This document shows positions 1 through 10,640 of a DNA stretch of 39,950 bases, piece by piece. The notes under the pieces are model-generated. The model saw only the letters and a program-made list of their open reading frames with translations. It was not told where the DNA came from and did no database searches. A program made the translations under genes and the position numbers. The stretch spans positions 1-39,950 of the forward strand of contig JADGRJ010000007.1 in NCBI GenBank assembly GCA_017881025.1, given 5' to 3'. This DNA comes from Rhizobacter sp. Lineage in GTDB: Bacteria > Pseudomonadota > Gammaproteobacteria > Burkholderiales > Burkholderiaceae_C. Positions within the stretch are counted from its first letter, which is position 1. Each line of letters opens with the position of its first letter.

Positions 1-1290
1 CTCGCCGGCAACGAGGAGTTCTTCATCGATCCGCTGAACGTCTTCCTGGTCACGCTGACCGCCTTCGTCGGCCTGACCACCGCGATCTTCTCGCGCCCGT
101 ACATGCGCGTCGAGCAGAACCACGGCAAGATGACGCCGGCGCGGATGCGCCTCTATCACAGCATGTACCAGCTGTTCAGCTTCACGATGCTCGTGGCGCT
201 GACGACCAACAACATGGGCATCCTGTGGGTGGCGATGGAAGCGGCGACGCTGACGACGGTGCTGCTGGTGAGCGTCTACCGCACCGCGGCCAGCCTCGAG
301 GCGGCGTGGAAGTACTTCATCCTCTGCGGCGTCGGCATCGCGCTGGCCCTGTTCGGCACGGTGCTGCTCTACATGGCTGCCGAGAAGGTCCTCGGCGCCG
401 AGGGCGGAGCGCTTCTCTGGACCCACCTCGACACGGTGAAAACCCGGCTCGACCCGAACATCATCACCCTCGCCTTCGCCTTCCTGTTCATCGGCTACGG
501 CACCAAGGTCGGCCTGGTGCCGCTGCACAACTGGCTGCCCGACGCCCATGCCGAAGGCCCGACGCCGGTGTCGGCGGTGCTCTCGGGCCTGCTCCTGAAC
601 GTGGCGATGTACGCCCTGCTGCGCTGCAAGGTGCTCACCGACGGCGCCCTGAACAACGCCCTGGCCGGCCAGCTGCTGATGGGCTTCGGCCTGGCGTCGG
701 TCGTCGTCGCGGCGTTCTTCCTCTCGCGCCAGAAGGACGTCAAGCGCATGTTCGCCTACTCGTCGATCGAGCACATGGGCCTGATCGCATTCGCCTTCGG
801 CCTCGGCGGGCCGATCGCCAACTTCGCCGGGCTGCTGCACATGACGGTGCATTCGCTCACCAAGTCGGCGATCTTCTTCGCCGTCGGCCATGCGACGCAG
901 AAGGCCGGAACGCAGGTGATGAGCGAGATCCGCGGCCTGATCAAGGTCAGTCCCACCGTCGGTTGGGGGATGATGCTCGGGACGCTCGCGATCCTCGGCA
1001 TGCCGCCGTTCGGCGTCTTCGCTAGCGAGTTCCTGATCCTCACCACCGCGATGCGCGAACAGCCCTGGGCCACGCCGATCCTGCTCCTCGCGCTCGGCGT
1101 CGCCTTCGCCTCGGTGCTCGGTCGGGTCCTGCCGATGGTCTTCGGCGAAACCTCGGTGAAGCCGCTGCCGCACCCGCCGGCACTGCTGCCGGTGTTCGTC
1201 CATCTCGGGCTCGGCCTGATGCTGGGCCTCTACGTCCCGCCCTACCTCGTCGGCTGGTACACCCAGGCGGCGCGGATGCTCGGAGGTTGA
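1..1290 (+). CDS. hyfF: Hydrogenase-4 subunit F-like membrane antiporter subunit (5' partial)
   Basis: Proton-translocating membrane subunit of the Mrp-antiporter/NuoL-M-N family, of the HyfF branch. The frame is open from base 1, so the true start lies before the window; at least 429 residues are present. Family signatures are visible: the PLHNWLPDAHAEGPTPVS segment, the KRMFAYSSIEHMG segment and the HSLTKSAIFFAVGH segment, all with the conserved Lys, His and Glu residues of the proton path, between many hydrophobic helices. The gene ends 4 bases before a hydrogenase large-subunit homologue, which places it in a hyf-type operon. HyfF is known to sit in the membrane arm of group 4 hydrogenases. 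Because the downstream large subunit has no NiFe site, the role here is inferred to be ion translocation driven by a non-hydrogenase reaction. The family assignment is firm, the coupled reaction is not. Confidence 0.9.
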   Translation, partial: LAGNEEFFIDPLNVFLVTLTAFVGLTTAIFSRPYMRVEQNHGKMTPARMRLYHSMYQLFSFTMLVALTTNNMGILWVAMEAATLTTVLLVSVYRTAASLEAAWKYFILCGVGIALALFGTVLLYMAAEKVLGAEGGALLWTHLDTVKTRLDPNIITLAFAFLFIGYGTKVGLVPLHNWLPDAHAEGPTPVSAVLSGLLLNVAMYALLRCKVLTDGALNNALAGQLLMGFGLASVVVAAFFLSRQKDVKRMFAYSSIEHMGLIAFAFGLGGPIANFAGLLHMTVHSLTKSAIFFAVGHATQKAGTQVMSEIRGLIKVSPTVGWGMMLGTLAILGMPPFGVFASEFLILTTAMREQPWATPILLLALGVAFASVLGRVLPMVFGETSVKPLPHPPALLPVFVHLGLGLMLGLYVPPYLVGWYTQAARMLGG

Positions 1291-1294
1291 GGCC

Positions 1295-2857
1295 GTGCGG
1301 ATTCCCGGGATAGATCTCGAATTCGATCGCCTCTCGGCACCCGTGCCAATCTGGCGCGCGAGCGTGGACGCCGACGCCTGGCAGGTCGCCGCTCGTGCCG
1401 TCGCCGCCGCCGGCGGTCGTCTCGTCGCGCTCTGGGGCGCGGACCGGGGCTGGCGCGAGACCGGGGGCTTCGCCGTCTGCGCGGCGTATGCGCTCGCCGA
1501 TGGGATCGCCTGGCTCGACCTGCCGCTCGCCGCCGATGCGCCGGCCTATCCCGATCTGTCGGCGCAGTTCTCGTGTGCGGTCCGAATGCAGCGCGCCGCT
1601 GCCGACCTGCTCGGGATCGTAGCGATCGGCGCTCATGACACGCGGCCGTGGCTGGACCATGGTGCCTGGCCCGCGGACCGGTTTCCATTGCACGAGCAGG
1701 CACCGGATGGCGCGGTCGGGGAAAGAGCGAAGGTCGTCGACTACCCCTTCGTCCGCGTTGCCGGCGACGGTGTCCACGAGATCCCGGTCGGCCCGGTGCA
1801 CGCGGGGATCATCGAACCGGGGCATTTCCGCTTTTCGGTCGTCGGCGAAAAGGTGCTGCGCCTCGAGGAGCGCCTCGGCTACACCCACAAGGGAATCGAA
1901 AAGCGATTCACCGAGCTGGCTCCGCTCGACGCGCATCGCCTCGCCGGGCGCGTGTCCGGCGATTCGACGGTCGCTTACGCGTGGGCCTACTGCATGGCGC
2001 TGGAAGCCGCCGCGGCCTGCGCGATTCCGCCCCGCGCCGCCTGTCTGCGGGCGCTGCTGCTCGAGCGCGAACGCGTCGCCAACCACCTCGGCGACCTCGG
2101 CGCGCTCGGCAACGACGCCGCGTTGACGTTCGGCCTGGCCCAATTCTCGCGCCTGCGCGAGAACTGGCTGCGCGTGTCGAAGGAGGTCTTCGGCCACCGG
2201 CTGATGATGGATGCCGTCGTTCCCGGCGGAACCGCCTGCGATGTCGACGGCGTGGCGGCGGAGCGGATGCGTATTCAATGCGAAGCCACGCTGTCCGAAG
2301 TCAGGGAGCTGCGCTCGATCTACGACGAGCACGCCGGCTTGCAGGATCGCTTCATGGGCACCGGACACGTGAGCGCGGAGCTGGCGGCCAATCTTGGCCT
2401 GACGGGGCTCGCGGCCCGCGCCAGCGGCCGGACGATGGACTTGCGGTCGGATCACCCGTGGCCGCCCTACGACACCCTGGCCGTGAAAACCGCGACCCAC
2501 CACGGCGGCGACGTCGCGGCGCGCGTCGCCGTGCGCTTCGTCGAGCTGTTCGAATCGTTGCGCCTGATCCGGGCCATCCTCTCCGCGCTGCCGGGAGGCG
2601 AGCGTCGCGGCACGGTCAGCCTGGCCGCGGGTTCCACGGTCGGCGCCGGCTGGGTCGAAGGCTGGCGCGGCGAAGTCTTCGTCGCGCTCGAGCTCGACGG
2701 CGAGGCCCAGGACCACCGCATTCGCCGCTGCCACTGCCACGATCCCTCCTGGCAGAACTGGCCCGTGATCGAGCATGCGGTGATCGGCAACATCGTTCCC
2801 GACTTTCCGCTGATCAACAAGTCGTTCAACCTCAGCTATTCGGGGCACGACCTGTGA
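1295..2857 (+). CDS. hyfG: Hydrogenase-4 large-subunit-like protein without NiFe ligands (Ehr type)
   Basis: 520-residue fusion of an N-terminal NuoC/30-kDa-like region (about 1-150) and a NuoD/49-kDa/hydrogenase large-subunit region (about 160-520). GTG start is supported by GGAGG at 1282-1286, 8 bases upstream. LGYTHKGIEKRF and the AGRVSGDSTVAYAW block identify the HyfG/HycE branch. In catalytic enzymes the first nickel motif is RxCGxCxxxH; here the same spacing reads R219-V-S221-G-D-S224-T-V-A-Y228, so both cysteines and the histidine are replaced. The C-terminal DPCxxC pair is D483-P-S485-W-Q-N488. The protein therefore should not bind a NiFe centre. It matches the known class of energy-converting hydrogenase-related complexes, whose substrate is generally unknown. 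The neighbours encode the membrane subunit HyfF and the iron-sulphur subunit HyfI. It is unlikely to be a pseudogene because the frame is full length. Confidence 0.88.
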   Translation: MRIPGIDLEFDRLSAPVPIWRASVDADAWQVAARAVAAAGGRLVALWGADRGWRETGGFAVCAAYALADGIAWLDLPLAADAPAYPDLSAQFSCAVRMQRAAADLLGIVAIGAHDTRPWLDHGAWPADRFPLHEQAPDGAVGERAKVVDYPFVRVAGDGVHEIPVGPVHAGIIEPGHFRFSVVGEKVLRLEERLGYTHKGIEKRFTELAPLDAHRLAGRVSGDSTVAYAWAYCMALEAAAACAIPPRAACLRALLLERERVANHLGDLGALGNDAALTFGLAQFSRLRENWLRVSKEVFGHRLMMDAVVPGGTACDVDGVAAERMRIQCEATLSEVRELRSIYDEHAGLQDRFMGTGHVSAELAANLGLTGLAARASGRTMDLRSDHPWPPYDTLAVKTATHHGGDVAARVAVRFVELFESLRLIRAILSALPGGERRGTVSLAAGSTVGAGWVEGWRGEVFVALELDGEAQDHRIRRCHCHDPSWQNWPVIEHAVIGNIVPDFPLINKSFNLSYSGHDL

Positions 2858-2888
2858 GCTGCCGTCGCGAGCGCGAGACCTAGACGCC

Positions 2889-3407
2889 ATGTGGAAGATC
2901 CTCCGCCAGATCGGCCGCGCCGGCATCCGCAGCGAAGCCGCGCCCCCGTACGACGACGCGCTGCGGGTCGAGGCCGAGCAGATCCAGCGCGACCTGCTCG
3001 CCACCCTGGGCCGTGCCCTCGCGATCCGCCAGGTCGACGCCGGTTCGTGCAACGGCTGCGAGCTCGAGATCCACGCGCTCGACAATCCCTACTACAACCT
3101 CGAGGGGCTCGGCATCCGGTTCGTCGCCAGCCCCCGCCACGCCGACCTGCTCCTGGTGACCGGCCCGGTGTCGCGCAACATGGAGCTTGCGTTGTCGCGC
3201 ACCTACGAAGCGACACCGGCACCCAAGCTGGTCGTCGCGGTCGGCGACTGCGGGTGCGACGGCGGCATCTTCGGCACGAGCTACGCGACCTGCGGCGGGG
3301 TCGCGAGCGTCCTCCCGGTCGACGTCGCCGTGCCGGGCTGCCCGCCGGCGCCGATCGAGATCCTGCGCGGCATCCTGACGGCGGTACGCCGCGGCCAACC
3401 GAAATAG
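2889..3407 (+). CDS. hyfI: Hydrogenase-4 subunit I-like / NuoB-family iron-sulphur subunit
   Basis: 172-residue homologue of the NuoB/HyfI/small hydrogenase subunit that binds one [4Fe-4S] cluster next to the active site of group 4 hydrogenases and complex I. Candidate ligands are C54 and C57 (SCNGCE), C121 (GDCGCDGG) and C151 (PGCPPAP). The CxxC spacing is the hydrogenase form, not the adjacent Cys-Cys of NuoB. The cluster site is thus intact although the partner large subunit has lost its nickel ligands. The gene lies 31 bases after the large-subunit stop and is the last gene of this operon; the next gene starts 67 bases later and is unrelated. The Shine-Dalgarno sequence is weak, so translation may depend on the upstream gene. 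Confidence 0.88.
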   Translation: MWKILRQIGRAGIRSEAAPPYDDALRVEAEQIQRDLLATLGRALAIRQVDAGSCNGCELEIHALDNPYYNLEGLGIRFVASPRHADLLLVTGPVSRNMELALSRTYEATPAPKLVVAVGDCGCDGGIFGTSYATCGGVASVLPVDVAVPGCPPAPIEILRGILTAVRRGQPK

Positions 3408-3474: not shown

Positions 3475-4146
3475 GTGGGATACCTCGAAGAACTGAAGCG
3501 CCAGGCCGACGCGGCGCTGGCGCAGCAAACCCAGGACATCGGCGCGCTGCAGCGCAATGCCTTGCTCACCGACTCCGCCTGCCAGTCGGCGGCGCGCTAC
3601 TTCGGCACGCTCGCGCGCCAGCTCAACGTCCTGCAGCCGGTCTCGAAGGCGGTCTGGCGCTTCGACAACCGGACTTCGTTCAGCCAGCTCCGCTTCACCG
3701 ACTTTCGCGCCGACTCGCGCCTCAAGAAGCTGCGCGATGCCGAGGTCTTCGACCACGTCGTCCTCAGCTTCGCCGCCAAGACCGGCACGCGGGTGACGAT
3801 CGCCAAGGATTTTCCGCCCGAGATCGAAAAGCTCGAGGCGCGCCTGTGCCAGTGCGGCGCGCACTACGACAGCGAGGTGATCCGCGATCCCGAGAACGGC
3901 CGCTTCGTCGAGAAGCGCTTCGAGCTCCTCGCCGATTTCCAGAGCAGCGTTCGCCTGCTGCCCGACCACGACGCCGGCCGTGTCACCTTCCACATCGCCA
4001 ACCTCGACGGCTTCGAGACGGTGAGCGTGGTCTTCCCGGCGTTCGAGGTCGGCACCGCCCGGCTCGACGAGCTGGCGCGCTGGATCAACGGCGAGCCGCA
4101 CGCCTTCCTGCGCGACGGCCAGCACCTGCGCCGGGTGGTCGCCTGA
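3475..4146 (+). CDS. Conserved protein of unknown function
   Basis: 223 residues, soluble, no signal peptide or membrane segment seen. GTG start chosen at 3475 because the protein-like sequence (GYLEELKRQADAALAQQ) begins there and an AGGA lies about 10 bases upstream. The N-terminal third is helical and charged; the middle holds two Cys in LCQCGAH (around 123-127) and the C-terminal third alternates strands (RVTFHIANLDGFETVSVVF). Third codon positions are strongly G/C, as in real genes here. I do not recognise a named domain. It sits between the Ehr operon and the DUF3460-scpA pair, which gives no functional hint. A TATCCT at 3446-3451 could be its -10 box. Confidence 0.75.
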   Translation: MGYLEELKRQADAALAQQTQDIGALQRNALLTDSACQSAARYFGTLARQLNVLQPVSKAVWRFDNRTSFSQLRFTDFRADSRLKKLRDAEVFDHVVLSFAAKTGTRVTIAKDFPPEIEKLEARLCQCGAHYDSEVIRDPENGRFVEKRFELLADFQSSVRLLPDHDAGRVTFHIANLDGFETVSVVFPAFEVGTARLDELARWINGEPHAFLRDGQHLRRVVA

Positions 4147-5321: not shown

Positions 5322-5966
5322 TCAGAGACGGGGCAAGGCCTGCAGATAGGCCGCCACGTTGCGGATGTCCTGCGCGGTGAGTTCGTGCGCCACCGACTTC
5401 ATGACGCCGCCCTCGGGTCGCTCGTCGGTGCGCTGGAACACCAGCAACTGCTTCATCACGTAGTCCGCATGCTGACCCGCGAGGCGCGGAAAGGTCGCGT
5501 CGCCCTTGCCTTCGGCACCGTGACAGGTCTTGCACGCCGGAACGCCTTTGTCTGCCACGCCGCCGGAGAAGATGGCCTTGCCGGCCTCGAACCTGCCGCG
5601 GTCGCCCTCGATCGGCTGTGCTTCCGGCGCCTGGTTGGCGTAGTAGGTGGCGAGCCCCTTGATCTGGTCATCGGTCAGGCTGCGGCTCAGGCCCCACATG
5701 TACTCGAAACCCGCCGGATCGCTGCGGCGATGGCTCCGAAAGCCCTCGAGCTGGGCCACGAAGTACGCCTCTTGCTGCCCAGCCAGGTTCGGGAAGTTGG
5801 GCGACACCGAGCTGCCCGTCATGCCGTGGCAGTTGGAACACACCTGTTGCGCCATCGTGGTAGCGGAGACCGCCGGGTTCGCCAGATCGCGCGAACGTTG
5901 CGGATGGGAACAGCCGGCCGACAGCACGACCGCTGCGGCGACGAGGGCGAGAGTCGCGGACTTCAT
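5322..5966 (-). CDS. Diheme cytochrome c lipoprotein (cytochrome c4-like)
   Basis: 214-residue exported electron carrier with two c-type heme motifs, C43SNCH and C145KTCH, each in its own cytochrome c domain with a following NLAGQ/RLAGQ segment, as in cytochrome c4. M90 and a Met near 190 are likely axial ligands. The N-terminus is a lipoprotein signal with LSAGC (lipidated C19), so it is membrane-anchored in the periplasm. The ATG at 5966 was chosen over an upstream ATG at 5996 because GGAGGTA stands 5 bases before it. It lies 37 bases downstream of the porin-cytochrome gene on the same strand, and so is probably the periplasmic partner that takes or gives electrons at the outer membrane. 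Confidence 0.92.
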   Translation of the reverse strand: MKSATLALVAAAVVLSAGCSHPQRSRDLANPAVSATTMAQQVCSNCHGMTGSSVSPNFPNLAGQQEAYFVAQLEGFRSHRRSDPAGFEYMWGLSRSLTDDQIKGLATYYANQAPEAQPIEGDRGRFEAGKAIFSGGVADKGVPACKTCHGAEGKGDATFPRLAGQHADYVMKQLLVFQRTDERPEGGVMKSVAHELTAQDIRNVAAYLQALPRL

Positions 5967-6003
5967 GAAATACCTCCGGATGCAGGGACCGCGCACGACG
6001 CGC

Positions 6004-7461
6004 TCAGTACGCCAGCCACGTGTAGAGGAAGAGCGTGTTGTTGTCGCGGGCGTTGCGGCCGAAGCCGTCGTAGTTCGTCGACGCGCCGTTGAAGCGGCTG
6101 TACGCCGTGTACTGCGCGCCGACGCGCAGGTACTGGATCGGCATCCAGAACGCCTCCAGCGTGAGGCCCCGAGTCGCCGGGTTGCCGGACAGGTTGCTGG
6201 CGGCGCCGTTGGTCTTGACGAGCGTGCCGGTGGCGTCGAAGCCGGCGGTCTGGTTGGCCGTGTTGGTGGTGCCGGTGAGGTTGAACAGCCCCAGGGCGCC
6301 GCCGTACTTCGCTTGGTAGACGTAGCTCACCTTCGCGCGCAGCACATTCGTGGTGTCGACGGCGTTGGAGTTGGCGAGCGTGGCGGCGCCGGTCGCATCG
6401 AAGAAGGACGCCGGCTGGTCGGCCAGTGCCGCGGGATAGCGGTGGCGATCTCGCGCGTAGACCAGCTGCGCCGTCACCGCGTGCGGGTCGAGCAGGTATT
6501 GGTACTGGCTGTCGATCATGAGGTCGGTGAACCGGTGCGTGCTCGCCGGGTCCGACGTATCGAGCGGATCGTCGTACACGCGCGCGACCATTCCCGAGGT
6601 GCCGACCATGAGGCTGTGCGGCCCCCATTCTCGATTTACCGCCAGGCGCCAGTAAGGGTTGACGCCGTGCAGCTTGGTGGTGCTCGCGTTGTCGAGCCCG
6701 GCGCTCATGAACGAGGTCGGTCCGCGCGACGTGCCGTAGCCGCCGAGCTCGGCGTAGATCATCCGGTTCCAGAACGCGTAGGCTGTCAGCCCGGCGATGT
6801 TGCCGCCCGCCGCGAAGCCCGGGTACGGCGAATTGCCGTCGATGAAGCGGCTGCTCGTCGGACTGGGCACGGGCACGTACTGCATCCAGGCAGCGACCGT
6901 GTTCCATGGATCCGATACCGACGGGTTGTTGTTCGCGCTGAGGCCAACGATCAGATCGCGCTTGTCGCTGATGAAGCGATCGACGAGGCGAATGTCGATG
7001 TTGTCGGCGTTACTGTGACCGTGGAAGTTGCCGTTCGCATCCTGGGTGGCGTAGGGGTCGTAGGTGACCTGCGCGAACGCACCGACGTTGTCGGTGACCT
7101 TGCCGCCGAGCAGGAGGCTGGCGGTGGCGAGGATGGCGCGGTTGTTCTTCTGGAAGTCGCCGCCCGGATCGTCGGACTTCGAGGTGTCGGCCACCTTCGA
7201 CAGGGTGGCCACGGCCATCGCCGAAATCGGCAGCGCGCGCTCGCCGATCGTGTAGCCGCTCAGCTTGAACATCCGTCCGTAGGGCGTGAGCTCCGGAAAC
7301 TGTCCGCCCGCGTGGCAGGCCATGCAGTTCTGCCCGGTCTGGCGGTTGAAGGCCGGGATCGCGCCTGCAACGTTGGGCAGCAGCGTCAGGCAAAGCGCCG
7401 AAACCGCAAGCAAGGCGCGCAATCGTCGCGCGGTGGCGTTGTTGCCTTCGACTTCGAACAT
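6004..7461 (-). CDS. Cyc2-like outer-membrane monoheme cytochrome fused to a porin
   Basis: 485 residues. A signal peptide (RRLRALL then a hydrophobic run to AGA34) is followed at once by a single heme motif, C46MACH50, in the context IPAFNRQTGQNC and FPELTPYGRMFKLSGY. The rest alternates short amphipathic strands with polar loops and ends in an aromatic strand (NNTLFLYTWLAY), as outer-membrane barrels do. This architecture and length are those of Cyc2, the fused cytochrome-porin known for iron oxidation at the cell surface; related proteins of unknown role exist in many bacteria. The second ATG (7461) is preferred over 7467 because AAGGAA then has proper spacing. An FNR-like box lies upstream and a diheme cytochrome downstream. 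Whether it oxidises iron is inference; a general outer-membrane electron conduit is safer. Confidence 0.78.
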   Translation of the reverse strand: MFEVEGNNATARRLRALLAVSALCLTLLPNVAGAIPAFNRQTGQNCMACHAGGQFPELTPYGRMFKLSGYTIGERALPISAMAVATLSKVADTSKSDDPGGDFQKNNRAILATASLLLGGKVTDNVGAFAQVTYDPYATQDANGNFHGHSNADNIDIRLVDRFISDKRDLIVGLSANNNPSVSDPWNTVAAWMQYVPVPSPTSSRFIDGNSPYPGFAAGGNIAGLTAYAFWNRMIYAELGGYGTSRGPTSFMSAGLDNASTTKLHGVNPYWRLAVNREWGPHSLMVGTSGMVARVYDDPLDTSDPASTHRFTDLMIDSQYQYLLDPHAVTAQLVYARDRHRYPAALADQPASFFDATGAATLANSNAVDTTNVLRAKVSYVYQAKYGGALGLFNLTGTTNTANQTAGFDATGTLVKTNGAASNLSGNPATRGLTLEAFWMPIQYLRVGAQYTAYSRFNGASTNYDGFGRNARDNNTLFLYTWLAY

Positions 7462-7522
7462 ATCCATTTCCTTGCTCCGTCAGCGATGGCCGCCATCTGG
7501 CGCCCTTGCCGGCAAGCCAGCG

Positions 7523-7607: not shown

Positions 7608-9479
7608 CTACCTGGCCAGCTTGAAAGCGATCATCGCCCGCAGCTTGTTGGGCAGCACCGGCTTGATGAGGAGATGGAAGTCGTGCTCGAGGGCTTCCTT
7701 GTCGTGCCCGGTCATGCTGCTGCCGGTGACGACGATCGCCGGAACGTTGCGGCCGAAGCGCTCGCGCACCGCGTCGATCGCGGCGACGCCGGTCTCGCCG
7801 TTGTCGAGCCGGTAATCGGCGATGACGAGCGAAGGCGGCGCCGCGGCGTCGGCCGCCTGCGCCCAGGCACCGGCGGCGCCGACGCTGTCGAGCGAGACGA
7901 TCGCCGCACCCCAACCCCTGAGCAGCACCTCGAGGCCTTCGCGCACCGCCGGCTCGTCCTCGACGATGACGATCAGGCGGCCGTCCAGGGTGATGCCGAT
8001 CGGCCCCTTGCCCGGAATCGATCGTGCCGTCGTTCGTGGCCCCTTGCCGAGCGGCAGCTCGACCGTGAAGACCGAGCCACGGCCTTCCTCGGAGCGCAGG
8101 TCGAGCGGTGCGACCATCAGCGCGCACAGCCGCTTGACGATCGCCAGGCCGAGGCCGAGACCCTTCTTCTGCTCGACCGCGACCGCTGGCGCGCCCGGCA
8201 CCTGATAGAACTCCTCGAAGATGCGCGCGCACTCCTCGGCGCGAATGCCGGGGCCTGTGTCCCACACCTGGAGCAGCAGCCGATCGCCCCGGCGCCGGCA
8301 GCTGAGCAGCACCGAACCGTCGCGGGTGTAGCGGATCGCGTTCGAGACCAGGTTGCGGACGATCCGCTCGACGAGCAGCGGATCGGCGAGGGCGACGTGC
8401 TTGCCGCCGCGGATTCGCAGCGCCAGGCCCTTCTCGAACGCGGCCGGCTCGAAATGCAGCCGGACCTTGCGAAAGATGTCGGCGAGCTCGAAGTTCTCGG
8501 GGTTGACCTCGACGCCGCCGCTGTCGATGCGCGTGATGTCGAGCAGCTCGGAGAACAGGCCCTCGAGCGCGTCGACCGATTCGTTGATGCTGTTGACGAG
8601 CTGCGCGACCTCGGGGTCGTGGGCACGCGCGCGCAGCGCCTCGGCGAACAGGCCCATCGCGTGCAGCGGCTGGCGCAGGTCGTGGCTGGCGGCGGTGAAG
8701 AACTGCGTCTTGGCACGGTTGGCGACCTCGGCCTCGTGGCGCGCCGCGTCGGCGACCGCCTTCTCGGCGCGCAACTGAACGGCGAGCGCCTCGTTGCGCA
8801 GCTTCAGGCCGACGACGCGTTCGAACGACTCGCGGTAGTTGCGGCCGAGCAGCAAGGTCATTCCCATCGCCACCGTCATGACCGCCGCCAGCTCCCAGCC
8901 GAGGGTGCTGCCCGCGAGGGCGACGCGGGCGATCGCGGGCGCGAAGATCATGAGCACGAAGAGGGCGAACAGGCGGTACTGCGGGCCGAGGATCGGCACC
9001 GAGGCGACGCAGAAGGTGTAGACGACGAGGACGAGCGCGACCTGGTGCGGGCCGCTGCCGAACGCCGAGAAGAACCAGGCCGCGATGCCCCAGAGCGCGC
9101 CCGAGGCGAGGACGCCCGCCTGCCACGCGCGCAGGCGCCGCTCGAGGCCGGCCGTCGACCTCGGCTCGCGCCGCTCGAAGCGGACGGCGAGCCAGGCGCG
9201 CAGCAGCCAGACGATCGCGAAGCCGGTTCCCCAGACGATGCGCAGCGACCGCGGCGCGACGCCGGCGAAGATCATCTCGATGATGATCGCGCCGATGGCG
9301 TGGCCGGCGAGCGAGGTGCGATTGAACGCGAACAGGCCGCGGACGTGATCGCGCAGGAGCAGGAACTCGTCGAGCGGCGCGTCGCCTTCGCCTGCCGGCG
9401 CCGCGGCCGTCGCGTTGCCCGCCGGCGCGGGCAGGGGCGCCGCCGCGACCGCGCTCAATGGAGCGGTCGCGTCAGCCAT
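7608..9479 (-). CDS. Hybrid sensor histidine kinase with C-terminal receiver
   Basis: 623 residues. About residues 40-225 hold roughly six hydrophobic helices (MIFAG, TGFAIVWLLRAW, SGALWGIAAWFF, ALVLVVYTFCVASV, RLFALFVLMIFAPAI, LAAVMTVAMGMTLLLG), so the sensor region is membrane-embedded and has no large periplasmic loop. A coiled coil leads to the HisKA box ASHDLRQPLHAMG with phosphoacceptor His266, then the ATPase with NLVSNAIRYT, DTGPGI and GLGLGLAIV. A receiver domain follows with D555 in IADYRLD and the Lys of LIKPV. It overlaps the regulator gene upstream by 25 bases, so the two are co-translated and very likely cognate. The signal is unknown. Confidence 0.93.
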   Translation of the reverse strand: MADATAPLSAVAAAPLPAPAGNATAAAPAGEGDAPLDEFLLLRDHVRGLFAFNRTSLAGHAIGAIIIEMIFAGVAPRSLRIVWGTGFAIVWLLRAWLAVRFERREPRSTAGLERRLRAWQAGVLASGALWGIAAWFFSAFGSGPHQVALVLVVYTFCVASVPILGPQYRLFALFVLMIFAPAIARVALAGSTLGWELAAVMTVAMGMTLLLGRNYRESFERVVGLKLRNEALAVQLRAEKAVADAARHEAEVANRAKTQFFTAASHDLRQPLHAMGLFAEALRARAHDPEVAQLVNSINESVDALEGLFSELLDITRIDSGGVEVNPENFELADIFRKVRLHFEPAAFEKGLALRIRGGKHVALADPLLVERIVRNLVSNAIRYTRDGSVLLSCRRRGDRLLLQVWDTGPGIRAEECARIFEEFYQVPGAPAVAVEQKKGLGLGLAIVKRLCALMVAPLDLRSEEGRGSVFTVELPLGKGPRTTARSIPGKGPIGITLDGRLIVIVEDEPAVREGLEVLLRGWGAAIVSLDSVGAAGAWAQAADAAAPPSLVIADYRLDNGETGVAAIDAVRERFGRNVPAIVVTGSSMTGHDKEALEHDFHLLIKPVLPNKLRAMIAFKLAR

Positions 9480-10174
9480 GGCGCGATCGCTCCCTGGCTC
9501 GACATCTGGCTCACGGCGAGGACCGCCTGGGTGCGCGAGTTGACGCCGAGCGCGCGCAGCACCGCGGCGACGTGATCCTTGACGGTCTCGACCGAGAGGT
9601 CGAGCTCGCGCGCGATCAGCTTGTTCGACTGGCCGCGCAGGAGCAGGCCGAGGACGTCGGTCTGGCGCGGCGTCAGCTTGAAGTTGGCGAGCGCCGTCGG
9701 CCGCAGCGTGTCCATGCCCGGCGGCCAGGTGTGCGAGCCGCCGCTGTCGCGGCCGGCATCGGGCGCGCCGGCGTCGCCCTCGCCCATCGTCATCGGCGGC
9801 ACGTAGATGCCGCCCGACATGACGACCTTGAGCGCCTCGGTGAGCGTCTCGTTGCTGGCGCGCTTGGGAACGAAGCCCATCGCGCCGAGGTCGATCGCGC
9901 GGATCACGTCGGCGCTGCGGTCCGACGCCGAGACGACGACGACCGGGATCGCCGGCCAGCCGTTGCGCAGCTCGATCAGCAGATCGAAGCCGTCGGCATC
10001 GCCCAGGCGCAGGTCGAGCAGGACGAGGTCGAAGGCACCGTCGGCAGCGAGCGCCTCGCGCGCGGCGCGCGCGCCGGCGACGCCGACGACGCTGACATCG
10101 CTGCCCATGCCCTGGATGACGTTCTGCAGCGCGGTGAGGATCAAGGGGTGGTCGTCGATGAGGAGGACTTTCAT
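9455..10174 (-). CDS. LuxR/NarL-type response regulator
   Basis: 239-residue DNA-binding response regulator. The N-terminal receiver has the acidic pair in LLIDDHP, the phosphorylated Asp in LVLLDLRLGDADG and the Lys in GFVPKRAS. A linker of about 40 residues precedes a LuxR-type helix-turn-helix with LTPRQTDVLGLLLRGQSNKLIARELDLSVETVKDHV read in two parts. The ATG at 10174 has GGAG eight bases upstream, whereas one at 10195 has none. It overlaps the hybrid kinase gene by 25 bases and starts 13 bases after the maoC-like stop, so it belongs to a four-gene run with parA-, maoC- and kinase genes. Confidence 0.92.
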   Translation of the reverse strand: MKVLLIDDHPLILTALQNVIQGMGSDVSVVGVAGARAAREALAADGAFDLVLLDLRLGDADGFDLLIELRNGWPAIPVVVVSASDRSADVIRAIDLGAMGFVPKRASNETLTEALKVVMSGGIYVPPMTMGEGDAGAPDAGRDSGGSHTWPPGMDTLRPTALANFKLTPRQTDVLGLLLRGQSNKLIARELDLSVETVKDHVAAVLRALGVNSRTQAVLAVSQMSSQGAIAPWLTRPLH

Positions 10175-10187
10175 GGCAGCGCTCCAG

Positions 10188-10640
10188 TCAGGCATAGCGG
10201 CGCGAGAGCGACTCGGCGACGCAGACCGGCTTGTCGGAGCCCTCGCGTTCCATCGTCACCTGCACCGTCAGCTGTGCGCCGCCTTCGAGCGGCTCGTAGT
10301 CGACCAGCTTGAAGCGGCCGCGCAGGCGGCTGCCGCTCGGCACGGGCGCCGGAAAGCGGACCTTGTTCAAGCCGTAGTTGACGCCCATGCGCGTGTCGCG
10401 CACCTCGAACGCGGAGAAGCTCATCTCGGGCAGGAGCGAGAGCGTGAAGAAGCCGTGCGCGATCGTGGCGCCGAACGGCCCGGCCTTCGCTCGCTCGGCG
10501 TCGAGGTGGATCCACTGGTGGTCGCGGGTCGCGTCGGCGAAGAGCTGGATCCGCTCCTGCGTGACCGTGATCCACTCGCTGACACCGATCTCCTGGCCGA
10601 CGAGCTCTTTCATCGCCGCGATGGTTTCGAAGCTTCGCAT
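10188..10640 (-). CDS. MaoC family dehydratase (hotdog-fold enoyl-CoA hydratase-like)
   Basis: 150 residues with the MaoC/NodN hydratase core: an Asp-His-type motif in ADATRDHQWIHLD, then GPFGATIAHGFFTLSLLP. These residues form the hydratase 2 motif (Asp, His) in (R)-specific enoyl-CoA hydratases. The downstream NYGLNKVRFPAPVPSG segment is also typical. It is cytoplasmic and may act on an acyl-CoA in fatty-acid or polyhydroxyalkanoate metabolism; the exact substrate cannot be read. The ATG lies 4 bases after the parA-like stop codon, and the stop is 13 bases before the response-regulator start. A hydratase within a signalling operon is unusual. Confidence 0.9.
   Translation of the reverse strand: MRSFETIAAMKELVGQEIGVSEWITVTQERIQLFADATRDHQWIHLDAERAKAGPFGATIAHGFFTLSLLPEMSFSAFEVRDTRMGVNYGLNKVRFPAPVPSGSRLRGRFKLVDYEPLEGGAQLTVQVTMEREGSDKPVCVAESLSRRYA

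Follow-up and report, generated by a model that had tools for sequence, protein, structure and literature searches.

Cyc2 is one of the main markers of iron oxidation by microbes, and the role of cluster 2 and distant Cyc2 homologs outside known iron oxidizers is left open in PMC10734462 and PMC5566968. What, then, does a Cyc2-like gene do beside a diheme cytochrome gene in the genome of a Rhizobacter sp.? The two genes lie on the minus strand of a 39,950-nt stretch of contig JADGRJ010000007.1 (the window). A preliminary description of this DNA had proposed an outer-membrane electron conduit and had left its donor or acceptor open. The interpretation as a Cyc2-like conduit is supported by the analyses reported here, which also bear on the likely source of the electrons.

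A porin-cytochrome gene and its diheme partner

The first gene of the pair (6004..7461, minus strand) encodes a porin-cytochrome of 485 aa, P0001, or of 487 aa with the ATG at 7465-7467 as its start; the open frame, 6004-7467 on the minus strand, holds 487 codons counted from the first ATG. The 485-residue start (ATG 7461) is the better choice because AAGGA, a Shine-Dalgarno-like sequence read from the DNA (7469..7473, minus), stands 7 nt before it, which bears out the length first given. A signal-peptide-like segment, recognized by eye, covers residues 3-36 (7360..7461, minus) and ends in AGA. The sequence has a single CXXCH heme-binding motif, CMACH, near the N-terminus (residues 48-52; 7312..7326, minus), so that both the signal peptide and the lone N-terminal motif that had been described are present. 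The two cysteines and the histidine of the heme motif do not vary in a 74-row alignment of the family, and no other region type in the comparison reaches the mean conservation of the heme segment. Met84 and Lys68, which are also well conserved, are candidates for the distal heme ligand. P0001 had no match in Pfam, NCBIfam or PDB sequence searches, and the family was therefore built from its relatives. PADLOC returned nothing for either protein of the pair. Third-position GC is strongly biased in both genes (0.90 in the porin-cytochrome gene, 0.85 in its partner).

The second gene begins 37 nt after the porin-cytochrome stop, with GGAGG 6 nt before its ATG. Based on its ORF, Pfam and PDB matches it encodes a diheme c4-type cytochrome lipoprotein of 214 aa, P0002 (5322..5966, minus). 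We identified a lipobox-like SAGC at residues 16-19 (within LSAGC; 5910..5921, minus) and two heme motifs, CSNCH (5826..5840, minus) and CKTCH (5520..5534, minus), in agreement with the earlier claim of a lipid-anchored diheme cytochrome 37 bases away. P0002 matches the Pfam family Cytochrom_C in two stretches, giving two c-type domains in about 200 aa, as in c4 cytochromes. Its best solved match is cytochrome c-552 (1h1o, E 2e-36), presumably the A. ferrooxidans protein, followed by chains named cytochrome c4. The c-552 match has modest weight because c4 cytochromes are general, widespread carriers. In two other solved entries, 8smr and 8snh, a c4 cytochrome occurs together with cbb3 oxidase subunits. 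Its lipobox indicates a lipid anchor in a membrane, probably the outer one.

In the rus operon of A. ferrooxidans, a diheme c4 gene (cyc1) directly follows cyc2, as in the window (PMC2754497, PMC10654088). The preliminary description had stated that the operon holds no other iron-oxidation marker, and this part has to be corrected: the diheme lipoprotein is c4-type and Cyc1-like, and is therefore itself a context marker. Gene order and family are both established, which makes this a cyc2-cyc1-type pair of a known and common kind. P0002 has a lipobox; the Cyc1 of A. ferrooxidans is described as membrane-bound (PMC2754497). A narrow literature search yielded no description of a lipid-anchored c4 partner of cyc2; the lipoprotein treated in PMC5371394 is a different, hexaheme protein.

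Placement within the Cyc2 family

A search for rusticyanin in 369 genomes of the class identified one genome, G302 (locus L129), in which a porin-cytochrome heads a same-strand rus-type gene run. The order is porin-cytochrome, a 195-residue protein, coxB, coxA, an unassigned gene, ctaA, a UbiA-family gene and a rusticyanin-like gene. The 195-residue protein has no family match and occupies the place that cup has in rus operons, and the UbiA-family gene stands in the ctaB place. The rusticyanin-like gene, ~7 kb from the first gene, scores 136-137 bits versus a curated cut-off of 146.7. The run is similar to the rus operons of Acidihalobacter and others (PMC10654088), and the rus operon of T. 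prosperus, as given in PMC2754497, also has no cyc1 at that place.

P0001 aligns with the G302 porin-cytochrome over its whole length (29% identity, E 2e-51). Both proteins fall inside a fully supported 72-row clade of a 103-row tree and, in a more careful 67-row tree, inside a 53-row clade with support of 100/99; apart from the latter lie nine cluster-1-like rows (100/98) and five rows of KY and related types (96/85). A position outside the Cyc2 clades, which had been named as a ground for rejecting the description, is thus not what either tree gives. Because its clade-mate heads a rus-type operon, P0001 appears to be of the Cyc2 cluster 2 type; the cluster names used here are inferred. Among the four genomes with the best rusticyanin matches, only G302 has a porin-cytochrome homolog. 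The other three, including the sole one above the curated cut-off, have none at E 0.001, which argues against a tight link between rusticyanin and this family.

Other sequence features were compared with those of Cyc2. At 485-487 aa, P0001 is longer than the 365-residue minimum used for Cyc2 (PMC8406198). Its AIPAFNRQT fits six of the seven specified positions of the consensus AXPXFAR[Q/K][T/Y], with N for A, and a strict PXFAR screen would therefore miss it. The same FNR occurs in 18/93 homologous ORFs, while the close clade relatives L028, L030 and L037 have FAR. The PXL after the CXXCH is present (CMACH-AGGQF-PEL), with five residues between H and P versus three in relatives that lack the GG (such as L014).

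Compared with cluster 2 systems (the A. ferrooxidans rus operon, Ferrovum, Thiomonas and Sulfuriferula), P0001 shares the fusion of a monoheme cytochrome to a 16-strand porin and, with the rus-operon member, full-length homology, clade and the motifs of loops 3 and 8 described below. It differs in the FNR and in the extra GG between CXXCH and PXL relative to some relatives. The pair also lacks rusticyanin, cup or cox genes alongside, and RuBisCO was not detected in the genome. Like A. ferrooxidans Cyc1, P0002 is a diheme c4 encoded directly after cyc2, with c-552 its best solved relative. Cluster 1 Cyc2 (Gallionellaceae, Zetaproteobacteria) shares the N-terminal cytochrome motif with P0001. 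In contrast, the rows that we take to be cluster 1 align mostly at the N-terminus only, form a separate clade and include none with a loop 3 or loop 8 motif (0/21). The MtoAB and PioAB systems also combine an outer-membrane porin with a cytochrome. Those, however, consist of a 26-strand barrel and a decaheme protein (PMC8406198), as against 16 strands and one fused heme in P0001. We found no match to MtrB/PioB (PF11854) in the genome to which the window belongs, and P0001 itself has no Pfam match of any kind.

Barrel fold and predicted extracellular loops

An AlphaFold2 model of P0001 has a mean pLDDT of 88.1, a pTM of 0.84 and 16 long strands between residues 81 and 486; its 74 input sequences came exclusively from the window and the loci of the named-genome contig scan. 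The 16-stranded porin barrel covers residues 81-487 (6007..7227, minus). Solved porins match the model with a Foldseek E of 2e-9 and, in a second comparison, with Z ~22 over residues 75-487, and a 16-strand barrel has also been predicted for Cyc2 (PMC8406198). The remainder of the protein had been called beta-barrel-like, with structure prediction as the check; a barrel is predicted with good confidence, and the model without a barrel that would have spoken against the description did not occur. The model holds no heme, residues 31-47 have pLDDT < 50 and the heme segment, the putative plug at the periplasmic mouth of the barrel, is poorly modelled. Signal peptide and barrel together place P0001, most plausibly, in the outer membrane.

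Loops 1-8 were taken as outward-facing, with strand 1 presumably rising from the periplasm. Two predicted extracellular segments are conserved across most of the P0001 clade: the first part of loop 3 (residues 180-195; 6883..6930, minus) and loop 8 (residues 460-477; 6037..6090, minus). This was first seen in 72 rows, partly picked by DNA patterns that include the loop motifs, and was recomputed on the 46 rows not picked by DNA pattern. In these 46 rows the loop 3 segment has a conservation of 0.655 and loop 8 one of 0.573, versus 0.14-0.39 for other loop parts and 0.52 for strands. Relative to equal stretches of the barrel, the loop 3 segment is in the top 1.5% and loop 8 only in the top 10%. 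Among A2-hit rows the loop 3 motif is present in 29/38 and the loop 8 motif in 30/38, and neither motif was found in any of the 31 cluster-1-like or cluster-3-like rows. The rus-operon Cyc2 of G302 carries both; a second homolog in G302 lacks the loop 8 motif. That loops 3 and 8 are shared with a rus-operon Cyc2 argues for a common substrate, and conservation on the outer face suggests an external one.

Conservation of the gene pair and its surroundings

A survey of 94 loci yielded 93 homologous porin-cytochrome ORFs in 92 loci, chosen as the best matches to the query and not at random. Among these best matches, 85/93 ORFs are followed within 600 nt by a c4-like gene of the same orientation, and 2 of the 93 had < 700 nt of room downstream. 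The pair is therefore not a chance layout. Both heme motifs lie in one frame in 83 of the 85 downstream genes. The eight ORFs with no c4-like gene in that span lie in L013, L016, L020, L022, L024, L025, L068 and L092. In three of these loci (L022, L024 and L025) the downstream gene encodes instead a cytochrome that is one-heme or annotated as c-type. In L020 there is a diheme gene 3.7 kb upstream, and L013 and L068 appear to hold one and the same gene.

A lipobox pattern is present in 75/83 of the c4 partners: in 74/76 where the porin-cytochrome has the GG (the CHAGGQFPEL type) and in 1/7 where the GG is missing, the single match there (L100) being probably spurious. GG and lipid anchor may have arisen together once, so their co-occurrence is not independent evidence. 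The window's genome holds four other matches that span both halves of P0002, and its other c4-like matches are at most 36% identical to P0002. In a tree of the c4 partners and these four proteins, which is poorly resolved and has very long branches, the window c4 is nearest to the other partners and far from the four.

Clustering of 87 loci revealed no neighbor that looked conserved besides the c4 gene and a YceI-like gene, which follows the c4 gene in 19 of the 87 (L047, L054-L061, L064, L067, L069-L071, L074, L076, L081, L083 and L089; one tested against Pfam). Three of these loci have two YceI genes. The window has no YceI gene at this place; its c4 gene is followed by scpA in convergent orientation. 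A narrow literature search found no paper on cyc2 with YceI.

Upstream of the pair and on the same strand (7608-10195, minus) are genes for a NahK/ErcS-related hybrid sensor kinase and an ErdR-related response regulator of the LuxR type. We rejected these as regulators of the pair since they were not found conserved beside it in the other loci: kinase matches near the pair in other loci are general only (28-34% identity, eight loci), and no response regulator match was found near it in loci of which some have only ~1.5 kb of flank. Scanning for promoters and terminators gave no promoter-like site and one terminator-like site, inside the gene and no more than in shuffled sequence. On the plus strand, 103-3407 encodes a Proton_antipo_M protein, a fused 30/49 kDa complex I-like subunit and a 20 kDa subunit, perhaps parts of a hydrogenase-4 or formate-hydrogenlyase-like membrane complex. 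Between these genes and scpA lies a gene for a 223-residue protein (3475-4146, plus) with no Pfam or NCBIfam match.

Several observations concern individual loci. In L021, on a Caballeronia plasmid, the porin-cytochrome and c4 genes have a HiPIP gene (5924-6235) upstream, whose product may act as an alternative carrier in the periplasm. An A. ferrooxidans plasmid record (L024, 1001-9637) and the Acidiphilium cryptum plasmid pACRY03 (L025, 1-8637) share, at 100% identity, an 8.6-kb stretch that encodes a distant porin-cytochrome together with a c-type cytochrome; either the DNA was transferred recently or one of the records stems from a mixed culture. The homolog at L017/L018 (G026:C27) has a large internal deletion and a different C-terminus and is probably a decaying copy.

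Distribution of relatives

Matches to the porin-cytochrome occur in nine of 40 genomes (its own, which is counted, and 39 relatives). A scan of named-genome contigs confirmed at least 578 relatives, of which the best 80 were kept. Matches also occur in nine plasmid records, with an Ideonella dechloratans plasmid at the top (69% identity). Relatives were found in Roseateles, Ramlibacter, Ideonella and Pseudomonas, heterotrophs that are not known for iron oxidation. Culture-collection strains with relatives include Roseateles saccharophilus, Ramlibacter aquaticus, Ideonella dechloratans and Thiobacillus thioparus.

In even samples, matches are present in 93/399 genomes of the order and 89/398 of the phylum, counts that include the genome itself and mix several Cyc2 types. 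Among the 89 phylum-sample genomes, 65 share a single family code (f247), and their matches are mostly confined to the N-terminus. This family is probably Zetaproteobacteria, because it has both cluster-1-like and KY-type copies, as McAllister et al. report for that group (PMC7029218). Cluster 2 cyc2 has been placed in Sulfuriferula, some Leptothrix/Sphaerotilus relatives and Ferrovaceae (PMC12285272, PMC11412304, PMC13386937, PMC13390463).

Proposed source and fate of the electrons

We favor, with moderate confidence, electron uptake from dissolved Fe(II) via the c4 cytochrome to a cbb3 oxidase. A dissolved donor, most likely Fe(II), would enter the barrel from outside and pass an electron to the P0001 heme, which would sit at the periplasmic mouth. 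The lipid-anchored c4 would take up this electron and hand it on towards the oxidase. With a ccoN match over the curated cut-off, the genome (98.6% complete) offers a route to oxygen. The Cyc1 c4 of M. ferrooxydans is thought to feed a cbb3 oxidase (PMC5371394), and growth on Fe(II) in gradient tubes is reported for Sulfuriferula strains that have both Cyc1 and a cluster 2 Cyc2 (PMC12285272). The caution about the donor in the preliminary description was right: PMC10734462 does not accept cluster 2 homologs that lack supporting context as iron oxidases. The FNR in the motif, the missing RuBisCO and MtrB/PioB matches in the genome and the occurrence of relatives in heterotrophic genera also weigh against Fe(II) uptake.

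Calvin-cycle autotrophy is not indicated, as we found no RuBisCO match in this 98.6% complete genome. Iron would hence at most supplement growth, and we rejected a reading of the organism as a dedicated Fe(II) autotroph. The electrons may supplement or protect a heterotroph rather than feed autotrophic growth. In the order sample, strong RuBisCO matches (E < 1e-100, a threshold set after the list was seen) occur in 148/399 genomes, in 42/57 with the full-length type and in 20/20 with the N-terminal-only type; nine more genomes that match to ~model position 426 all have RuBisCO (9/9), and seven genomes with broken matches were left out. This comparison lends weak support only, because kinship confounds it.

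The same uptake conduit could serve another donor, such as reduced humics or phenols, flavins, sulfide, Mn(II) or other cells, which we regard as possible although rather unlikely. Consistent with this are the relatives in heterotrophic genera, and a Pyr_redox_2 protein encoded upstream in L085, L086, L087 and L091, two of them named Thiobacillus; this protein (one of the four, L087, was tested) looks like a sulfide:quinone reductase. Non-iron roles are also left open for distant Cyc2 homologs by PMC5566968 and PMC10734462. The conservation of loops 3 and 8 with a rus-operon Cyc2 nevertheless argues for a common substrate, and beyond the c4 gene and YceI (19/87) none of the neighbors looked conserved in the clustering of 87 loci.

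Readings that depart further from Fe(II) uptake fare worse. Heme conduits can in principle run both ways, and the four other genome matches covering both halves of the c4 protein would be compatible with electrons leaving via c4 and porin-cytochrome to Fe(III) or another extracellular acceptor. Export of this kind is improbable, however, given the high potential measured for Cyc2PV-1 (208 mV; PMC8406198), the association of c4 with cbb3 oxidase subunits in 8smr and 8snh, and the absence of a MtrB/PioB match in the genome. Cyc2PV-1 was produced in E. coli with the aid of a ccm helper plasmid (PMC8406198). The barrel fold alone resembles general porins, and a solute porin with a vestigial heme domain would conduct no electrons at all. 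Yet the invariant heme cysteines and histidine in 74 rows, the heme segment as the most conserved region type and the c4-like gene kept in 85/93 homologs make this scarcely credible.

Possible implications for iron oxidation in Burkholderiales

Beyond Fe(II) uptake by this one pair, we can offer a broader and more speculative proposal, which we hold with low confidence. This branch of Cyc2 may be widespread yet scarcely noticed, and may give ordinary heterotrophic Burkholderiales of fresh water and soil access to the electrons of Fe(II) without CO2 fixation. The GG insertion and the outer-membrane, lipid-anchored c4 may go together in a lasting complex of the c4 with the plug, and motif screens would have missed part of the branch through the FNR for FAR.

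If the pair oxidizes Fe(II), heterotrophic Burkholderiales would commonly draw a side income from iron; if it does not, the Cyc2 marker over-predicts. The conserved loops 3 and 8 and the departure to FNR are practical points for better markers.
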